This document shows, one piece after another, positions 54,363 through 64,000 of a stretch of 64,000 nt of DNA. The notes below the pieces were generated by a model. The model saw only the letters and a list, made by a program, of their open reading frames with translations. It did not search any database and was not told the origin of the DNA. Origin of the DNA: Pseudomonas mendocina (GTDB taxonomy: Bacteria; Pseudomonadota; Gammaproteobacteria; Pseudomonadales; Pseudomonadaceae); NCBI RefSeq assembly GCF_003008615.1, contig NZ_CP027657.1:4712001-4776000 (forward strand), in the 5' to 3' direction. The translations under genes were made by a program, and so were the position numbers. How positions within the stretch are numbered: position 1 is the stretch's first letter; every line of letters starts with the position of its first letter.

Positions 54363-56438
54363 TCAGTCGAACTGGTACTGCACGCCCGCACCGACGTACC
54401 AGGCGCGTTCCGGGCCAGGCTCGTAATAGCGGCCGTTGCCATCACCGACGATCACCGAGCCGATGTATTCGCGATCGAACAGGTTGTCGATACGGAGCAC
54501 CTGGTTGAAGGTCAGCGCACCGGCTTTCTGCTCGAAGCGCGCCTGCCAGTTGAACAGTGCATAACTGGGCGCCGCCTTGGCGGTGTTGCTGTCCTCGACG
54601 TACAGCTGGCTGCGGTACAGGCCTTCGACGGCGGTGCTGAACCAACCCACCGGCTGCCAGGCGAGTTCGCCATACAGGCTGCGGGTAGGAATGCCCGGCA
54701 GATGGTTACCCGACTCGATCAGGCGGCCGTTGCTGGTGAAATCCTTGCTGTATGTGGCATCGATATGGGTGTAGGCAAGGTTGGCGCGCAGGGTTTCGCT
54801 CAGGCGGCTTTCCAGCGCCAGCTCGATGCCACGGCGGCGGGTCTGGGCGGCGTTCTGGAAACGTGAACGGCCACCGCTGGCCGATTCCACCACCAGTTCG
54901 TCGTCGGTATCGATCTGGAACAGTGCCAGTTGCAGGCTGGTGGCCTCGGCCAGGCGCGCCTTTAGGCCGACTTCGATCTGCTCGCTGGTGGCTGGTTTCA
55001 GGTCGAAGCCGAAACCGCCACCGTTGCCGGAATAGGACAGCTCGTTCAGCGTCGGCGTCTCCACGCCCTTGCCCCAACTGGCGTAGATATTCAGGCTTGG
55101 CAGCAGGGCATAGCTGGCGCCCAGGGTCGGTGTGAGCTCGCGGTAGGTCACCGAGCCGCTGTCGTCGCCATTGCTCAGAAAGCGGTCATCCACGTCGAAT
55201 TCTACCTGGCTGTGGCGCAGACCGGCCTGCAGGTCGAGCTTGCCCAGTTGCCAGGCTGCCTGGACATAGGGCGACAGGCTGGTGACCTCGTTGCGCTCGT
55301 CGCGGCGCAGGTTGCCTTTCACGCCCAGGGTGGTGCCGACGAAGTTCTCGTAACCCTGGCGGTCATCGCGCGAGTAGTCGTAATCCAACCCTGTCGTAAC
55401 CGTCAGCAGGCTGCTGCCCAGGTCGAATGATTGAATCCAGCGATTACCGATGCCATGGAAGCGTCGCTCGAAGTCGATCACTCCACCAGATTGTGTTGGG
55501 TTGTTTTCTTGGAACGCCTTCCCAATCGACTGGTACTGAATCACCCGTCGCGTGCCGCTATACAGCGTGCTCTGCCAGGTGCCGTGGGCGAAGCTGCGTT
55601 CGTAGTTGAGCGCGAGCTGACGATGGTCGACGGTCTTGCGTGTATTGAATTCCAGGGCGCTGGGGGCTGCGGCACGGCGGTCGCTCTGTACCTGTTGCCA
55701 GGTCAAACCCTGTGGGTCTTGCGTGTCGTTCTGATCCAGCTCGCTGAAGCTCAGGCTGAGCTTGCTGACATCGTCCGGGTACAGGGTCAGCTTGGCGAAG
55801 GTCTTGTCGAGGATGGCGCCGCTGTGGTCGCGATAACCGTCGGTTTCGAAGTGCGAGCGGTTGATGATGAAACCGGCCTTGTCGTTGCCACCTTCGGCGG
55901 CGACGCGGGTACGGCTGGTACCGTAGGCGGCCTGGGAGGTGTCGACCGATACCTTGGGCGCGCCTTCGCCATCGCGCGAGAACAACTGGATCACGCCGCC
56001 GGAGTTGCTGCCGTAGACACTGGCGAACGGGCCGCGCAGGACTTCGATGCGTTCCAGGGTGTCGAGGTCGAAGGTCGCCGCCTGACCCTGACCATCCGGG
56101 TTGGACAGCGGCACGCCATCGGCCAATAGCTTGATGCCGCGAATGCCGAAGGCCGAGCGGGCGCCGAAGCCGCGCGAGGAGATCTGCAGATCCTGGGCGT
56201 AGTTCTGCCGGTTCTGCACCACCAGCCCCGGCACGCTGCCGAGCGCTTCTGACAGGTTGACGCCCGGTTTGCCCAGGGTGGCCTGTTCGGCGTCGATGCG
56301 GTTGACGGAGAAGGGCAGTTGCCAGCCGCTGGCCTGATAGCGGCTGCCGGTGATCACCAGTTCGTCGATCTCGTAGGGCGTCTGCTCGGCCAGTGTCAGT
56401 CCCGGGAGCAGAGCGATGCAGGTCAACTTGAGGCGCAT
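54363..56438 (-). CDS. pqqU: TonB-dependent receptor, PqqU/YncD-like
   Basis: A 691-residue outer-membrane receptor. The signal peptide is MRLKLTCIALLPGLTLA, followed by a TonB-box-like DELVITGS and a plug with NRQNYAQDLQISSRGFGARS and LRGPFASVYGSNSGGVIQLF. Against remembered E. coli YncD/PqqU it shares NLSEALGSVPGLVVQNRQNY, GYRDHSG, QTRRRGIELA and DREYIGSVIVGDGNGRYYEP, a striking match. YncD was shown to import pyrroloquinoline quinone. Here the gene diverges from a PQQ-dependent alcohol dehydrogenase, supporting a PQQ-scavenging role. I reject the upstream extension of the frame. Confidence 0.85.
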   Translation of the reverse strand: MRLKLTCIALLPGLTLAEQTPYEIDELVITGSRYQASGWQLPFSVNRIDAEQATLGKPGVNLSEALGSVPGLVVQNRQNYAQDLQISSRGFGARSAFGIRGIKLLADGVPLSNPDGQGQAATFDLDTLERIEVLRGPFASVYGSNSGGVIQLFSRDGEGAPKVSVDTSQAAYGTSRTRVAAEGGNDKAGFIINRSHFETDGYRDHSGAILDKTFAKLTLYPDDVSKLSLSFSELDQNDTQDPQGLTWQQVQSDRRAAAPSALEFNTRKTVDHRQLALNYERSFAHGTWQSTLYSGTRRVIQYQSIGKAFQENNPTQSGGVIDFERRFHGIGNRWIQSFDLGSSLLTVTTGLDYDYSRDDRQGYENFVGTTLGVKGNLRRDERNEVTSLSPYVQAAWQLGKLDLQAGLRHSQVEFDVDDRFLSNGDDSGSVTYRELTPTLGASYALLPSLNIYASWGKGVETPTLNELSYSGNGGGFGFDLKPATSEQIEVGLKARLAEATSLQLALFQIDTDDELVVESASGGRSRFQNAAQTRRRGIELALESRLSETLRANLAYTHIDATYSKDFTSNGRLIESGNHLPGIPTRSLYGELAWQPVGWFSTAVEGLYRSQLYVEDSNTAKAAPSYALFNWQARFEQKAGALTFNQVLRIDNLFDREYIGSVIVGDGNGRYYEPGPERAWYVGAGVQYQFD

Positions 56439-56868
56439 GGAGCGATCCTTCTTCAGGTTCTTCTTGTGCGTACCGTACAGGTGCGGTCGATGTTCATCGC
56501 GACGCAGACGTTGCCGACGTTGTATCGCGTCGCAGGGCAAGGTCATCGATGGCCGCTGGAGCGAGTGACATCCATGGGCCGTGCCAGGTTTGATGAACGC
56601 TTGGCGAGCCACGTGCGCGCAAGGGTTGAGTTGTCTCGAAAATGCCGTCCAATGACCATGGCCAGAAGGTTTCCAGCGGCTTCGACATTGGTCGTGGTTC
56701 TTTGGTCGCATGCTGGTGCTGTGCGGCTCTGCGTGGTTTCCAAGTATGCAAGACGAGCCTCGCAGGGTAGCAGGCGAACCTACGGGATACGGTCGTGAGC
56801 GAGGTGAATTTGTTTCCCCGCATTTGCCGCGGCACTGCGGCCTGCTGCTGTAGCGTCGCTGCAACAGC

Positions 56869-56901
56869 TGTCGCGTTCGGCGCTACACCTGTTGCGCGAC
56901 A
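56869..56901. promoter_or_regulatory. Candidate activator-binding (upstream activating) site
   Basis: TGTCGCG at 56869-56875 faces the TGTTGCGCGACA near-palindrome at 56890-56901. TGTCGC/GCGACA half-sites are typical of AcoR-type enhancer-binding proteins. It lies about 75-105 bases upstream of the sigma-54 promoter, the normal distance. Confidence 0.55.
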
Positions 56902-56973
56902 GTGCTCCATGCGTTGTCGTCGTCAACTGCGCAAGGCCCCATAAAACAAGGGCTGCGCCCATTCTCCAGGCCC

Positions 56974-56989
56974 TGGCACAGCCGTTGCT
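56974..56989 (+). promoter_or_regulatory. Sigma-54 promoter
   Basis: TGGCAC-N5-TTGCT matches the -24/-12 consensus TGGCAC-N5-TTGC(A/T) exactly. It lies 59 bases upstream of the alcohol dehydrogenase ATG, and a sigma-54 activator gene is at 60893-62824. Confidence 0.85.
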
Positions 56990-57048
56990 CCAGCGCTTGC
57001 AAGCCGCGATATCGCGTTCGCGGTCACAACAAGAACTGGAGAAAAACC

Positions 57049-59226
57049 ATGAGTTCGATTGGCCTCGACTTGCCTATCGCCCGCTCGACGCTCGACAGGC
57101 AACCCACCTTGCGCCTCCCACGTACTGCCCTGGTCGCAGCTTTGCTGCTGACCGGCTTCTGTCAGGCGGTGCAGGCCGCCGATGTCGACGGCAAGCGCAT
57201 CATCGCCGCCGACCAGGAACCCGGTAACTGGATGAGCCACGGGCGTACCTACGACGAACAACGCTATAGCCCGCTGGAGCAGATCGACCAGCAGAACGTC
57301 GACCAGCTCGGCCTGGCCTGGAGCTACAAGCTGGACATCGATCGTGGTGTGGAAGCCACGCCTATCGTGGTCGATGGCGTGATGTACACCACCGGGCCGT
57401 TCTCGGTGGTCTACGCCCTGGATGCGCGTAACGGCAAGCTGTTGTGGAAGTACGACCCGAAATCCGACCGCAGCCGTGCCGGCGAAGCCTGCTGCGACGC
57501 GGTCAACCGTGGCGTGGCCGTGTGGAAGGGCAAGGTCTACGTCGGAGTGCTAGACGGCCGTCTGGAGGCTATTGACGCCAAGACGGGCGAACGCGTCTGG
57601 TCCGTCGACACCCGCGCCGATCACAAGCGTAGCTACACCATTACCGGTGCGCCGCGCGTGGTGAACGGCAAGGTGATCATCGGCAATGGCGGTGCCGAGT
57701 TTGGCGTGCGCGGTTACGTGACCGCCTACGATGCCGAAAGCGGCAAGCAGGCCTGGCGCTTCTACACGGTGCCGGGCGACCCCAAGCTGCCACCGGAAGA
57801 CAAAGCCATGGAAATTGCTGCCAAGACCTGGCACGGCGATGCCTTCGCCGAACAGGGCGGCGGCGGTACCGCCTGGGATTCCTTCGCCTTCGACCCGGAG
57901 CTGAACCTGCTCTACATCGGTGTCGGCAACGGCTCGCTGTGGGATCCGAAGTGGCGCAGCCAGGCCAAGGGCGACAACCTGTTCCTGTCGTCAATCGTCG
58001 CCATCGATGCCGATACCGGCGAGTATGCCTGGCACTACCAGACCACACCGGGCGACGCCTGGGACTTCACCGCCACCCAACACATGATCCTCGCCGAGCT
58101 GCAGATCGACGGCAAGGAGCGCAAGGTGCTGATGCAGGCGCCGAAGAACGGCTTCTTCTACGTCATCGACCGTGCCACGGGCGAGTTGCTGTCGGCCGAG
58201 AACATCGTGCCGGTGAACTGGGCCAAGGGCATCGACATGAAGACCGGTCGACCCATCGTCGACGACGAGGCCGCCGCCTATTGGAAAGATGGCAAGCGCA
58301 AGCTGGTGACCCCGGCGTTCTGGGGGGCGCATGACTGGCACCCTATGTCGTTCAACCCCAAGACCGGCCTGGTCTACATTCCGGCGCACATCATGTCCGC
58401 CTACTACGAGCACATCCCGCAGGCGCCTGCGCGCAACCCGTTCAAGAGCATGTACCAGCTCGGCCTGCGCACCGGCATGATGCCGGAAGGCCCGGATGGC
58501 CTGCTGGAGATGGCCAAGACCTGGTCCGGCAAGCTGATCGCCTGGGATCCGGTGAAGCAGAAGGCCGCCTGGGAGGTGCCCTACATCACCATCTTCAACG
58601 GCGGCACGCTGAGCACTGCCGGCAATCTGGTGTTCGAGGGCAGCGCAGATGGTCGGGTGATCGCCTACGCCGCCGAGGATGGCAAGAAGCTCTGGGAACA
58701 GCCGGCTGCTAGTGGCGTGATGGCTGCGCCGATCACCTACTCGGTGGACGGTGAGCAATACGTGACCTTCATGGCTGGCTGGGGTGGGGCGTTCTCCACC
58801 TTCGCTGGCGCCCTGTCGCTACGGGCCGGCGTGCAGCCTTTCGCTCAGGTGCTGACCTACAAGCTCGGCGGCACCGCCAAGCTGCAGGAGCCGGCGCCGC
58901 CTGCCGATGCGCCGAAGCCGCCGGCACTGACAGCCGATGCCGCCACCGTCGAGGCCGGCGCCAAGCTGTACGACGGCTATTGCTCGCAGTGCCATGGCAT
59001 CCACGCCGTGAGCGGTGGTGTGCTGCCGGATCTGCGCAAGCTGGCGCCGGAGAAGCACGAGATGTTCCTCGGCATCCTCTATGGCGGCCGCGTGCCCGAC
59101 GGCATGCCGTCGTTCGCCGAGGCCTTCGATGCCAAGCAAGTCGATCAGATTCACCAGTACCTGATCAAGCGTGCCCACGACCTTCAGCAGGAAGGCGACG
59201 CCTGGAAGAAATTCAGCGCCAACTGA
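57049..59226 (+). CDS. Quinohemoprotein (PQQ) alcohol dehydrogenase, type II
   Basis: A 725-residue periplasmic enzyme with signal peptide ending VQA (about residue 43). The PQQ propeller shows the vicinal disulfide Cys148-Cys149, the catalytic Asp339 in GDAWDFTATQ and W-docking repeats. The residue two after the catalytic Asp is Thr341, not Asp, so it is a Ca-type rather than a lanthanide-type enzyme. A C-terminal cytochrome c domain has CSQCH (645-649) and Met in PDGMPSF (about 686). The ADH-IIB/IIG-type layout suggests a primary or secondary alcohol substrate; which alcohol is not known. Confidence 0.93.
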   Translation: MSSIGLDLPIARSTLDRQPTLRLPRTALVAALLLTGFCQAVQAADVDGKRIIAADQEPGNWMSHGRTYDEQRYSPLEQIDQQNVDQLGLAWSYKLDIDRGVEATPIVVDGVMYTTGPFSVVYALDARNGKLLWKYDPKSDRSRAGEACCDAVNRGVAVWKGKVYVGVLDGRLEAIDAKTGERVWSVDTRADHKRSYTITGAPRVVNGKVIIGNGGAEFGVRGYVTAYDAESGKQAWRFYTVPGDPKLPPEDKAMEIAAKTWHGDAFAEQGGGGTAWDSFAFDPELNLLYIGVGNGSLWDPKWRSQAKGDNLFLSSIVAIDADTGEYAWHYQTTPGDAWDFTATQHMILAELQIDGKERKVLMQAPKNGFFYVIDRATGELLSAENIVPVNWAKGIDMKTGRPIVDDEAAAYWKDGKRKLVTPAFWGAHDWHPMSFNPKTGLVYIPAHIMSAYYEHIPQAPARNPFKSMYQLGLRTGMMPEGPDGLLEMAKTWSGKLIAWDPVKQKAAWEVPYITIFNGGTLSTAGNLVFEGSADGRVIAYAAEDGKKLWEQPAASGVMAAPITYSVDGEQYVTFMAGWGGAFSTFAGALSLRAGVQPFAQVLTYKLGGTAKLQEPAPPADAPKPPALTADAATVEAGAKLYDGYCSQCHGIHAVSGGVLPDLRKLAPEKHEMFLGILYGGRVPDGMPSFAEAFDAKQVDQIHQYLIKRAHDLQQEGDAWKKFSAN

Positions 59227-59290: not shown

Positions 59291-60724
59291 ATGAGCGAAA
59301 CCACCTACCAAAACTACATCGACAGCGCCTTCGTCGGCAGCGACAAGCTGATCGAAGTGCGTAACCCGGCCAACGGCGAACTGCTGGCGCGTATCCCAGA
59401 GGCCAGCAGCGAGCAGGTCGACCACGCCATCGCTGCCGCACGCCAGGCGCAGAAGGGCTGGGCCGCCAAGCCGGCTATCGAACGTGCCGGCTACCTGCGC
59501 CGTATTGCCGAAAAGGTGCGCGCCAATGCGCCGCGCCTGGCCCGGATCATCACCCAGGAAGGCGGCAAGGTGCCGGCGCTGGCCGAGGTGGAAGTCAACT
59601 TCACCGCCGACTACCTCGATTACATGGCCGAATGGGCACGCCGCCTGGAAGGCGAGGTGTTGACCAGCGATCGCGCCGGCGAGCATATCTTCCTGCTGCG
59701 CAAGCCGCTGGGCGTGGTGGCCGGCATCTTGCCGTGGAATTTCCCGTTCTTCCTGATCGCGCGCAAGATGGCGCCGGCGCTGCTGACCGGTAACACCATC
59801 GTCATCAAGCCCAGCGAGGAAACCCCGATCAACTGCTTCGAGTTCGCCAGGCTGGTGGCTGAAGTCGAGCTGCCGACTGGTGTGTTCAACGTCGTCGGTG
59901 GCACTGGCGCAGGGGCCGGCAGTGCACTGACCCGTCATGCTGGCGTCGACCTGATCAGCTTCACCGGCAGCGTCGGCACCGGCTCGCGGATCATGGCCGC
60001 CGCTGCGCCACATATCACCAAGCTCAACCTGGAACTGGGAGGCAAGGCGCCGGCCATCGTCCTGGCCGATGCTGATCTGGATCTGGCGGTCAACGCCATC
60101 AAGGCTTCGCGGGTGATCAACACCGGACAGGTGTGCAACTGTGCTGAGCGCGTCTACGTCGAGCGCAAGGTGGCGGATCAGTTCATCGATCGAATCGCCT
60201 CGGCAATGGCGGCTACCCGCTATGGCGATCCGTCCGCCCAGGCCGATCTGGACATGGGGCCGCTGATCAACCAGGCCGGTCTGGACAAGGTGGCGCAGAT
60301 GGTGCGCACGGCAGTCGGGCAGGGCGCGCAGGTGATTACCGGCGGCAATATTGCTGACCTGGGCAAGGGCTTTCACTATCAGCCGACGGTGCTTGCCGGC
60401 TGCGCCACCGACATGGAAATCATGCGCAAGGAAATCTTCGGTCCTGTGCTGCCGATCCAGATCGTCGATGATCTCGACGAGGCTATCGCGCGGGCCAACG
60501 ACAGCGAGTACGGCCTGACCTCGTCGATCTACACCCGTAACCTCAGTGCTGCGCTCAAGGCCAGCCGTGAGCTGGACTTCGGCGAGACCTACATCAACCG
60601 TGAGAACTTCGAGGCGATGCAGGGCTTCCATGCCGGCACGCGCAAGTCCGGCATCGGCGGCGCGGATGGCAAGCATGGGCTGTACGAGTACACCCATACC
60701 CATGTGATCTACGCGCAGGAATAA
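59291..60724 (+). CDS. NAD(P)-dependent aldehyde dehydrogenase, AldA (lactaldehyde DH) type
   Basis: A 477-residue ALDH close in sequence to E. coli AldA: AEVEVNFTADYLDYMAEWAR, PWNFPFFLIARKMAPALLTG, LELGGKAPAIV with catalytic Glu, and the catalytic Cys in NTGQVCNCAERVYV. The C-terminus FEAMQGFHAGTRKSGIGGAD also fits. It lies 64 bases after the PQQ-alcohol dehydrogenase and should oxidise its aldehyde product in the cytoplasm. The exact aldehyde is unknown. I choose the ATG at 59291 over earlier starts. Confidence 0.92.
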   Translation: MSETTYQNYIDSAFVGSDKLIEVRNPANGELLARIPEASSEQVDHAIAAARQAQKGWAAKPAIERAGYLRRIAEKVRANAPRLARIITQEGGKVPALAEVEVNFTADYLDYMAEWARRLEGEVLTSDRAGEHIFLLRKPLGVVAGILPWNFPFFLIARKMAPALLTGNTIVIKPSEETPINCFEFARLVAEVELPTGVFNVVGGTGAGAGSALTRHAGVDLISFTGSVGTGSRIMAAAAPHITKLNLELGGKAPAIVLADADLDLAVNAIKASRVINTGQVCNCAERVYVERKVADQFIDRIASAMAATRYGDPSAQADLDMGPLINQAGLDKVAQMVRTAVGQGAQVITGGNIADLGKGFHYQPTVLAGCATDMEIMRKEIFGPVLPIQIVDDLDEAIARANDSEYGLTSSIYTRNLSAALKASRELDFGETYINRENFEAMQGFHAGTRKSGIGGADGKHGLYEYTHTHVIYAQE

Positions 60725-60892: not shown

Positions 60893-62824
60893 TCAGAACA
60901 ACGCGTTGGGCTGCACGATGCCGTGCTTCTTCATCTTGCGGTAGAGGGTCGAGCGGGCCACGCCGAAGGTTTCGGCCACGGCGCTGATGTTCCAGCGATG
61001 TTCGCGTAGCGCCGCGCGCAGATGGCGTTCTTCGTCATTTTCCAGCCGATCAGCAAGACGGCTTTCGGGCGCACGTACCGATTCCTCGCCAGACTGGCTC
61101 AACGCTTGTAGTTCGGCTGGCAGGCAGTCCACGTCGATGCAACCATCCTCGGCCAGCGCCGCGGCATAACGCAGGCAGCTGGACAGTTGGCGGATATTGC
61201 CGGGCCATGGGTGATTGAGCAGGCGCTGGCGCGCCTCATCGGTCAGGCGGAACTGACCATGGCTGCGCAGCAGGCTGTCGACCAGGGCATTGCGGTCACT
61301 GCGCTCACGCAGCGCTGGCAGGGCCAGCGGCATGCCGTTGAGGCGATAGAACAGATCTTCGCGGAATGTCTTGTTGCCGATCATTTGCGCCAGGTTCTGG
61401 TGGGTGGCGGAGATCACCTGCACGTCCAGCGGCACAGGGTTCTCGGCACCCAGTGGAGAGATTTCGCGCTCGGCCAGCACGCGCAGCAGGCGTGTCTGCA
61501 AATGGGCCGGCATGTCACCGATCTCGTCAAGAAACAGCGTGCCGCCATTGGCCTGTTCCAGTTTGCCTTTCATGCCTTTCTTGTTGGCGCCGGTGAAGCT
61601 GCCGCCGCGGTAACCGAACAGTTCACTTTCGATCAGGCTTTCCGGAATCGCCGCGCAGTTCAGTGCGACGAATGGGCCGCGGGCGCGGGCGCTGGCCTGG
61701 TGAATGGCACGGGCGAAGGCTTCCTTGCCGGTGCCGGTTTCGCCGGTGATGAGGATCGGGATGTCCTTGTCCAGCACTTTGCGCAGGCGGCGTACACCCT
61801 CCAGAAGACGCGTATCCTGGCCGCCAAGGCGCTGCAGATCCGGGTGTTCGCCCGCTGTGGCTGTGCTCGAGCGGATACGCATGGACGGTGTTGCCGGCAC
61901 GCGCAGGCTGACACCGACCAGCGCTTCGTTCGCCAGCGTGCGCAGGTTCAGACTGCGGGCGCCACCGTTGCTCAGGCTCAGCAATTCATCGACGCCCGCC
62001 GGCAGCAACTGGTCGATACGACTGCCGAGCAGGTCGATCTGGTGCTCTTGCTGGTAGCTGACGAAGGCCGCGTGGTTGGCGCCGATGATCCGCCCCTGTT
62101 CGTCGAGTGCCAGCAATTGCTCGTTGGCCAGGTCGCTGATGTCGTCGTGAGATTTCACCGAGAGGGTCATGCGGTCGCGATAGCGTTGGCGGAAGCTGGC
62201 GTTCTCGATCATCCGCGCATACATGATCACCAGTTGCAGGGTGAGATACTGCGTTTGCTTGGGCCCCTCGCTGTTCAGGCAGGTGGCGTTGAGGCAGCCG
62301 CGCAGCACGTTCTGCGCATCGTAAATGGGCGAGACCGAGCAGCTCAGGCGAAAGTTGGAGATCAGGAAGTGTTCCTGATGATGGATGGTCATCGCCTGGC
62401 GCGAGGCCAGTGCGGTGCCGATGCCATTGGTGCCCACCGTGGATTCGTCCCAGCAGGCGCCAACGATGAGCCCGGCCTGGGTGTAGGTGTCGTACTGCAA
62501 TGGCAGGCGAGTGTCGAGGGTGACGCCGTGCTCATCGCTGAGCAGTACCGCGAACCCGGCCGGAACCACGCGCCTGGCGAGCCCGGTGACGCCCTGGCCA
62601 GCGATGTTCAGATAGTCCTGATGTGCGCGCTGGTGTTCGCGTAGCTCGTCCGCGGTCAGTACGTGTTTCTCGCCGTGGCCATACGGATCGAGGCGATGTT
62701 GCATCACGCTGCGGTACCAGGAGCGGGCGATCTGCTCGTCGGGATGGATGCAGCGCTCCGGAAAATGATCGGCCACGAAGGCAGTGAGATCACTAGGGCA
62801 TACCCCAGGTGCATGGATGCTCAT
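60893..62824 (-). CDS. Sigma-54-dependent activator, AcoR-like (GAF, AAA+, Fis-HTH)
   Basis: A 643-residue enhancer-binding protein starting MSIHAPGVCPSDLTAF after CAGGAG. The N-terminal GAF-type sensory region is AcoR-like (WDESTVGTNGIGTALASRQA). The AAA+ domain has GETGTGKE, the sigma-54 contact loop GSFTGA (standard GAFTGA with A to S) and GGTLFLDEIGD. The C-terminal Fis helix-turn-helix includes WNISAVAETFGVARSTLYRK. It converges on the aldehyde dehydrogenase and probably activates the sigma-54 promoter at 56974. The inducer is unknown. Confidence 0.92.
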   Translation of the reverse strand: MSIHAPGVCPSDLTAFVADHFPERCIHPDEQIARSWYRSVMQHRLDPYGHGEKHVLTADELREHQRAHQDYLNIAGQGVTGLARRVVPAGFAVLLSDEHGVTLDTRLPLQYDTYTQAGLIVGACWDESTVGTNGIGTALASRQAMTIHHQEHFLISNFRLSCSVSPIYDAQNVLRGCLNATCLNSEGPKQTQYLTLQLVIMYARMIENASFRQRYRDRMTLSVKSHDDISDLANEQLLALDEQGRIIGANHAAFVSYQQEHQIDLLGSRIDQLLPAGVDELLSLSNGGARSLNLRTLANEALVGVSLRVPATPSMRIRSSTATAGEHPDLQRLGGQDTRLLEGVRRLRKVLDKDIPILITGETGTGKEAFARAIHQASARARGPFVALNCAAIPESLIESELFGYRGGSFTGANKKGMKGKLEQANGGTLFLDEIGDMPAHLQTRLLRVLAEREISPLGAENPVPLDVQVISATHQNLAQMIGNKTFREDLFYRLNGMPLALPALRERSDRNALVDSLLRSHGQFRLTDEARQRLLNHPWPGNIRQLSSCLRYAAALAEDGCIDVDCLPAELQALSQSGEESVRAPESRLADRLENDEERHLRAALREHRWNISAVAETFGVARSTLYRKMKKHGIVQPNALF

Positions 62825-63187
62825 GGGCACTCCTGACAATGGTGCGTTGGCTCGCAGCCTCTTGTTGTTGTGTCGGCTCGCCCGGCGGATAGACCGTGGG
62901 TGCGACCGTAACGACTGCAACTCTAGCCGCAATCAGGCGGGTTGGGAACCGACAGGTCTGATGGCGACCGTGCATGCCAGGCGCTGTCTGCATGCCGTTT
63001 TCTGCAGGTTTCCGTCAGCGCTGCGAGTGCGCTACGGGCTACGTGATGATCAGCGCCAGATCGATTTCGAGAGGCTGGGTGGTGAACGATGAAATGTTGA
63101 AAAAGGAGGGTTGTCGAACGATTTGGATAGCGCCAACATCCAGCTCAAACAATGAGCGGCCCACGTCGATGGTGCCCAGGAGTTCCC
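62825..63187. other. Divergent promoter region activator / kinase-permease
   Basis: No gene is supported here. The right end has AGGAG 5 bases before the gene at 63188. Several G/C-rich inverted stretches occur without a clear match to a regulator motif. Confidence 0.6.
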
Positions 63188-64000
63188 ATGCAACCGCAGC
63201 CTCTCGCACCTGTTGCTGTGCCCGCCGCCATGACCCTGGTGGTCATGGGTGTCAGTGGTTCTGGCAAGAGTGATATCAGCCGGGCCGTCGCCACCCACCT
63301 TGGCTGGCGGCATATCGAAGCCGATCATTTCCATTCCCGTGAGAACGTCGAGCGTATGCGCTCCGGGATTGCGCTGAGCGATGCCGACCGCCAGCACTGG
63401 CTGGCTACCCTGAGTCAGGAGATGCAGGCGGCGCAACTGAGCGGGCAGGGCTTCGTTCTGGCCTGCTCGGCGCTCAAGCGGGCCTACCGCGAGCGCTTGC
63501 GCGATGCCGTGCCAGGCCTGCAATTCGTGCACCTGCAGATCGACCAGGCTACCGCGTTGCAGCGTGTCGGTGAGCGCCCAGGGCATTTCATGCCGCCATC
63601 ATTGGTCGACAGCCAGTTCGCCACCCTCGAAGCACCTCTCGATGAGCCTCATGTGCTGGTGCTGGACGCTGCTCGCCCGCGTGAGGAGCTGGTGGCGGAT
63701 GTCTGCACCTGGTTGCAACGTGATGCCCTGGAGTTGTCGGATGCCGAGACCGTTTTCGTCAGCGAAGTTGATAGCGCTAACAGTGTCAGCGTGACAGGTA
63801 CCGAACACATCTATGGCGGCCGCCTGGCGCGACTGTTCGACCAGCTTACCGACGGCATGATGGCGCTGTTGATGGCCTTCATGGTGGTGGCGGTATTCGG
63901 CAACGTGGTGCTGCGCTACGCCTTCGGCACCGGCTGGGCGGGAGCCGAGGAGCTGTCGCGGCTGGCGTTCGTCTGGCTGGTATTCGTTGGCGTGGCGTCG
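63188..64000 (+). CDS. Gluconokinase fused to TRAP transporter small permease (partial)
   Basis: An open frame of 271 codons that leaves the window. Residues about 15-170 match GntK-type gluconokinases: Walker A MGVSGSGKSD, ADHFHSRENVERMRSGIALS, ACSALKRAYRERLR and RPGHFMPPSLVDSQFATLE. A linker of about 45 residues is followed from about residue 215 by a DctQ-like small permease, with a membrane helix (MMALLMAFMVVAVFGNVVLR) and WAGAEELSRLAFVWLVFVGV. There is no stop between the parts. It would couple sugar-acid uptake by a TRAP system with phosphorylation. The DctP and DctM genes are not in the window. Confidence 0.88.
   Translation, partial: MQPQPLAPVAVPAAMTLVVMGVSGSGKSDISRAVATHLGWRHIEADHFHSRENVERMRSGIALSDADRQHWLATLSQEMQAAQLSGQGFVLACSALKRAYRERLRDAVPGLQFVHLQIDQATALQRVGERPGHFMPPSLVDSQFATLEAPLDEPHVLVLDAARPREELVADVCTWLQRDALELSDAETVFVSEVDSANSVSVTGTEHIYGGRLARLFDQLTDGMMALLMAFMVVAVFGNVVLRYAFGTGWAGAEELSRLAFVWLVFVGVAS

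Follow-up and report, generated by a model that had tools for sequence, protein, structure and literature searches.

A PqqU-type receptor gene beside a PQQ-dependent alcohol dehydrogenase in Pseudomonas mendocina: a known kind of importer in what looks like a swapped-in pairing

The locus and its control elements

The window, which is the whole 64,000-nucleotide stretch of DNA analysed here, is taken from Pseudomonas mendocina contig NZ_CP027657.1 (positions 4,712,001 to 4,776,000), a genome of 5.77 Mb on a single contig; at this locus, the closest named relatives belong to the mendocina/oleovorans kind of Pseudomonas. The locus contains a TonB-dependent receptor gene and a gene for a pyrroloquinoline quinone (PQQ)-dependent alcohol dehydrogenase (ADH), which are divergent and 610 bp apart. 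The features, and the evidence on which each is assigned, are as follows.

54363 to 56438, minus strand: pqqU orthologue, predicted TonB-dependent PQQ receptor of 691 aa (PDB match, contact residues, Pfam plug and barrel domains)
56571 to 56590, minus strand: sigma54-like site facing pqqU (TGGCACG..., imperfect -12), candidate only (12 of 14 consensus positions)
56860 to 56875, no strand: enhancer-like palindrome A (1 mismatch to CGCNACANNTGTNGCG; the four linked loci agree in 12 of 16 columns)
56881 to 56896, no strand: enhancer-like palindrome B (perfect palindrome match; the four linked loci agree in 16 of 16 columns)
56973 to 56989, plus strand: putative sigma54 promoter of the ADH gene (CTGGCAC-N5-TTGCT; 13 of 14 consensus positions)
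57049 to 59226, plus strand: PQQ- and haem-dependent ADH of the ADH-IIG type (PDB 1yiq, Pfam PQQ propeller and cytochrome domains, TIGR03075 over cut-off)
59291 to 60724, plus strand: aldehyde dehydrogenase (AldDH), second gene of the block (Pfam Aldedh; NF007497 over cut-off)
60893 to 62824, minus strand: sigma54 activator with GAF, AAA+ and Fis-type HTH domains (Pfam; company of ADH and AldDH at other loci), presumably AcoR-like
63152 to 64000, plus strand: start of the gluconate-kinase/TRAP operon (positions in relatives; gene names read from the sequence)

The ADH gene starts at the ATG at 57049, and the best PDB match of its product is the quinohemoprotein alcohol dehydrogenase 1yiq (1445 bits, ungapped over residues 44-724), which we take to be ADH-IIG of Pseudomonas putida HK5, consistent with a reference title in PMC12997753. 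The domain order is that of a type II quinohaemoprotein, with PF01011 at residues 61-382 and a C-terminal cytochrome c domain (PF13442) at residues 633-705. The original prediction had held that the neighbour of the receptor needs PQQ, and by family (1yiq and Pfam) this is so. The window ADH differs from that of strain HK5, which was compared by protein only, in its placement beside a PqqU gene. The trio of ADH, AldDH and activator is found together at six of eight further ADH loci inspected in the genus, the exceptions being one locus cut by a contig end (L095) and one in which no activator was found (L096); pqqU lies within about 20 kb at none of the eight. As a separate observation, the distance between pqqE and an ADH-IIG gene is about 6-7 kb in two genomes of the comparison (G013, contig C22, and G166, contig C1). 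Beyond the block, the frame that opens at 63152 and continues to 64318 in the genome (L159) joins gluconate-kinase-like and TRAP small-permease-like parts in a single 388-aa frame, an arrangement also present in relatives such as L078 (names again read from the sequence).

The consensus for sigma54 promoters is TGGCAY-N5-TTGC, and the pattern on the ADH side of the spacer agrees with it. The same pattern is located upstream of all 24 ADH genes compared when its first base is left free, and upstream of 15 of 21 in a stricter form, where the 24 are the best 21 loci of the genus draw (window included) plus three relatives in which ADH is likewise linked to pqqU. No such site was found in five more distant ADH-like genes (53-60%), which were left out of the 24. 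A palindrome like YGCNACANNTGTNGCR, with at most two mismatches, accompanies 21 of the 24 ADH genes and is missing from L049, L050 and L059. The idea of a wider regulon defined by this palindrome was rejected, as the pattern occurs at four places in its own genome, two of them at this locus, versus five for a reversed control pattern.

The site facing pqqU has an intact -24 element, while its -12 element is without the usual GC and carries ATGG in place of TTGC. It is present in all four linked loci, and 31 other upstream rows, a set that includes outgroups, broken copies and duplicates, all score lower. Among 2000 random spacers, which were first-order random sequences and not exact shuffles, 112 contained one such sigma54-like site and four contained two. 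Furthermore, the conservation of the site is unexceptional, with 39 of 599 spacer stretches equal or better; given this and the imperfect -12 element, the site is regarded as a candidate only.

The receptor and the PQQ economy of the genome

A structure of a PqqU homologue with bound ligand is already in print. The stop codon of the window receptor ends at 54363 on the minus strand, where the original prediction had placed it, and translation likely starts at the ATG at 56438 versus the TTG of the longer listed frame. The top PDB matches in a phmmer search are chains of Escherichia coli YncD, or PqqU (6v81, E = 2.4e-164; 9c4o, E = 5.2e-163), which are aligned over nearly the full length, and the next family, FhuA, follows at E = 7e-15. 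Judged by these scores, the match to YncD is far beyond chance. Identity to the E. coli copies is 40.9-41.7% among the tblastn matches listed.

The available parts of PMC12124388 define a PqqU signature of Tyr, Phe or Trp at position 99 together with Arg304 and Arg365, and describe Lys274 and Arg536 as important in E. coli PqqU and less conserved. The corresponding residues of the window receptor are Q84, F99, Q121, K274, R304, Q308, Q310, R365, N477, Y481 and R536. Ten of the eleven PQQ contacts named in those parts are therefore identical to E. coli, and the eleventh is Phe for Tyr99, an accepted substitution; the signature is present as F, R and R, and K274 and R536 are kept as well. The signature is also found in 91 of 94 aligned homologue rows (91 different sequences, as some genomes were fetched twice) and is incomplete in L129, L133 and L138, while the single paralogue tested from this genome has none of the three residues. 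The NCBIfam model for PqqU (NF041535) scores the window receptor at 659.7 bits, which is below its curated cut-off of 1200 and yet makes it the best family by 500 bits; we read the cut-off as set for close relatives of E. coli. Results from these comparisons indicate that the receptor is, by sequence, a PqqU/YncD orthologue, in agreement with the resemblance to YncD first noted in the original prediction, and that it very likely imports PQQ.

Two further ideas about the receptor were set aside. Position 274 has been linked to a possible metal (PMC12124388, parts available), and metal co-transport through a glutamate there is not supported, the window receptor having lysine. A plasmid origin of the window pqqU was likewise rejected, since the plasmid matches are less than 60% identical.

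The original prediction suggested that the strain may import PQQ made by others "even if it can make it", and proposed looking for pqqABCDE in the genome. All five genes are found, clustered and each over its curated cut-off, almost 1 Mb from the window pqqU on the contig, and the qualification was right. A peptidase frame beside them gave no match to any PQQ family model. An obligate need to import PQQ is ruled out by the presence of these genes, and imported PQQ would come from recapture or scavenging. In this respect the organism differs from E. coli, which makes no PQQ, and the two also differ in gene order, as pqqU faces yncE in E. coli K-12 and the ADH gene in the window. The genome contains four PF01011 genes, namely the window ADH and genes at 494074 (gcd-type), 5721192 and 5728574. 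Across the genus draw, a strong pqqE match is present in 178 of 199 genomes.

Distribution of the pairing among relatives

Comparison with 21 named loci of the P. mendocina group (L097-L115, L117 and L118) reveals that the pairing is confined to a few members. The block of ADH, AldDH and activator lies between pqqU and gntK in the window and in three of the 21 loci (Pseudomonas sp. 8O, P. mendocina PSB00032 and P. composti CCUG 59231). The other 18 relatives keep pqqU without ADH, and in 17 of these pqqU faces the gntK/TRAP operon directly, in divergent orientation; the remaining locus, that of sp. 8Z, has no gntK there either. Two loci named P. composti differ from one another, LY1 being empty and CCUG 59231 filled, and since each species is represented by a single genome in the collection, these may be different species. 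Three loci without ADH (L100, L102 and L118) have pqqU copies with a stop or frameshift, which may be real or derived from sequencing.

The exchange is not limited to the block. The N-terminus of the receptor before the conserved TGSR motif is 93-100% identical to that of the window in the linked loci and 14-39% identical in the unlinked loci of the group, with the exception of L113 at 76% (the values for L078, L100, L105 and L106 depend on a start codon chosen by script). The intact receptor bodies of the group, in contrast, are 86-94% alike in linked and unlinked loci alike. When the region upstream of the window pqqU was used as a query, only the three linked loci matched. On a tree of the receptor bodies (24 rows, with duplicates, broken copies and some outgroups left out), the linked pqqU genes require four changes, and 0% of 200 bootstrap trees unite them; the starred branches force only two changes, and 8 of the 21 inner branches are unresolved. 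This pattern suggests recombination in which one boundary fell within the 5' part of pqqU, and the pqqU-ADH pair is probably a recent arrangement that spread in this way. The signal peptide of L113, which is of the linked type (76%) in a locus without ADH, may be a trace of an earlier block or of some other exchange.

Beyond the group, pqqU adjacency to PQQ dehydrogenases recurs above chance. The receptor was matched at 35% identity or more in at least 73 genomes of the genus draw among the matches listed, and 69 of these also have a PF01011 gene. A PF01011 dehydrogenase lies within 2 kb of pqqU in six of the 69 (the genome of the window, G120, G149, G181, G130 and G194), versus 0.16 expected under even placement; without the genome of the window, five are observed versus 0.15 expected, and 63 of the 69 have no dehydrogenase within this distance. 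Outside the genus, a homologue is present in 37 genomes of the class draw and a PF01011 gene in 22 of them, with the two genes within 2, 10 and 20 kb in 2, 5 and 7 genomes (0.09, 0.45 and 0.88 expected). One of these seven (G463) has a receptor that lacks the PqqU signature, and a second PqqU of another genome (G318) was left out of the count. The gene numbers and distances behind these chance figures were read by eye from tables, draft contigs hide some distances, and the genomes are related, so that the figures overstate independence.

The individual arrangements are varied. A gcd-type gene lies just upstream of pqqU in G149 and divergent from it in G120, and neither genome gave a pqqE match. 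The ADH and pqqU frames overlap as called in G236. A PQQ dehydrogenase follows pqqU on a Rahnella aceris plasmid, while none is annotated within about 9 kb of pqqU on an Ideonella plasmid. G130 contains two PqqU-like genes (L088 and one on contig C187, which was matched as two overlapping pieces), and the two have different PQQ dehydrogenases nearby. Outside the genus, L122 (G473) has a similar gene set in another order, a sigma54 activator separating pqqU from a PQQ alcohol dehydrogenase.

In the published record, linkage of pqqU to the pqq biosynthesis operon is described for four Burkholderiales, and this is the only gene-neighbourhood statement in the available parts of PMC12124388. Those loci resemble the window in that pqqU shares one locus with other PQQ genes, and differ from it in that the partner in the window is a user of PQQ. 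The available parts of PMC12997753, PMC11658791 and PMC13088180 contain no mention of a pairing of pqqU with a PQQ dehydrogenase, and in PMC10875860, also available in part, the legend of a figure that compares xoxF3 clusters includes a TonB-dependent receptor, which is not named there as PqqU. Literature searches, which covered sources in part, returned no publication on such a pairing.

Interpretation of the pairing

The explanation we favour, with a probability of roughly 0.8, is that the PqqU orthologue serves in the recapture and scavenging of PQQ, and that the ADH block was recombined beside its gene. First, the receptor would act as a high-affinity binding site for PQQ on the cell surface. 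Next, TonB energy would drive PQQ into the periplasm, where it could load the apo-enzymes of the quinoproteins of the cell, the ADH next door included. Since PQQ is also produced by the cell itself, the receptor would probably be used mainly for recapture of leaked cofactor together with scavenging at times of high demand. The block of ADH, AldDH and sigma54 activator would have entered the spacer between pqqU and gntK, and its entry would have replaced the upstream region and the signal peptide of pqqU.

The original prediction is confirmed as an observation and partly supported in its interpretation. Its link between a cofactor importer and the user of that cofactor in one locus stands as to the divergent adjacency, and does not stand as a conserved feature. 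A conserved importer-enzyme module is rejected, as pqqU mostly occurs without ADH and the eight ADH loci inspected elsewhere have no pqqU within about 20 kb.

It is an even question whether PqqU imports PQQ beside an accidental neighbour, with the ADH block sitting in a permissive spacer under its own control and pqqU mainly serving glucose dehydrogenase and the gluconate operon. The orientation of pqqU towards gntK at nearly all loci without ADH is consistent with this, as are the gcd-type gene at 494074 and the same promoter pattern before the ADH trio where no pqqU is near; what argues against it is that pqqU had its 5' end and the sequence upstream replaced, and that pqqU recurs beside PQQ dehydrogenases. 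A further proposal would give the exchange a function, in that a recombining cassette would bring a sigma54-controlled ADH and, in one event, renew the promoter of the resident pqqU along with its signal peptide and TonB-box region. Regulation of the importer would then be tied to the enzyme that depends on its cofactor, such that an alcohol would induce PQQ recapture and apo-enzyme together. We consider this proposal possible, with the odds somewhat against it, and alcohol-controlled co-expression of pqqU and ADH through shared control is, on the upstream sequences, plausible in a tentative sense.

Alternatively, the pairing could be ancestral in the group and have been lost, not gained, in most members, as might be read from L113, an early branch (modest support, 90/76) with the linked-type N-terminus and no ADH. 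This is unlikely, since the outgroup G166 has an N-terminus of the unlinked type (32%) and its ADH on another contig, and each repeated loss would need to restore the same unlinked 5' end. It is very improbable that the receptor imports something other than PQQ itself, for example a siderophore or a metal-PQQ complex, as the contacts kept at about 41% overall identity, the lysine at 274 and the repeated adjacency to PQQ enzymes outweigh the missed model cut-off and the difficulty of predicting substrates of TonB-dependent receptors from overall similarity (PMC12124388, parts available).

On the favoured explanation, the importer is of a known kind, and its pairing with ADH looks like the product of a swapped-in DNA block. 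The locus adds evidence from genome context that PqqU may serve quinoproteins, also in bacteria that make their own PQQ. Furthermore, close relatives with and without the pairing, including the two strains named P. composti, could be used to test whether the uptake of PQQ follows the requirement of a single enzyme.
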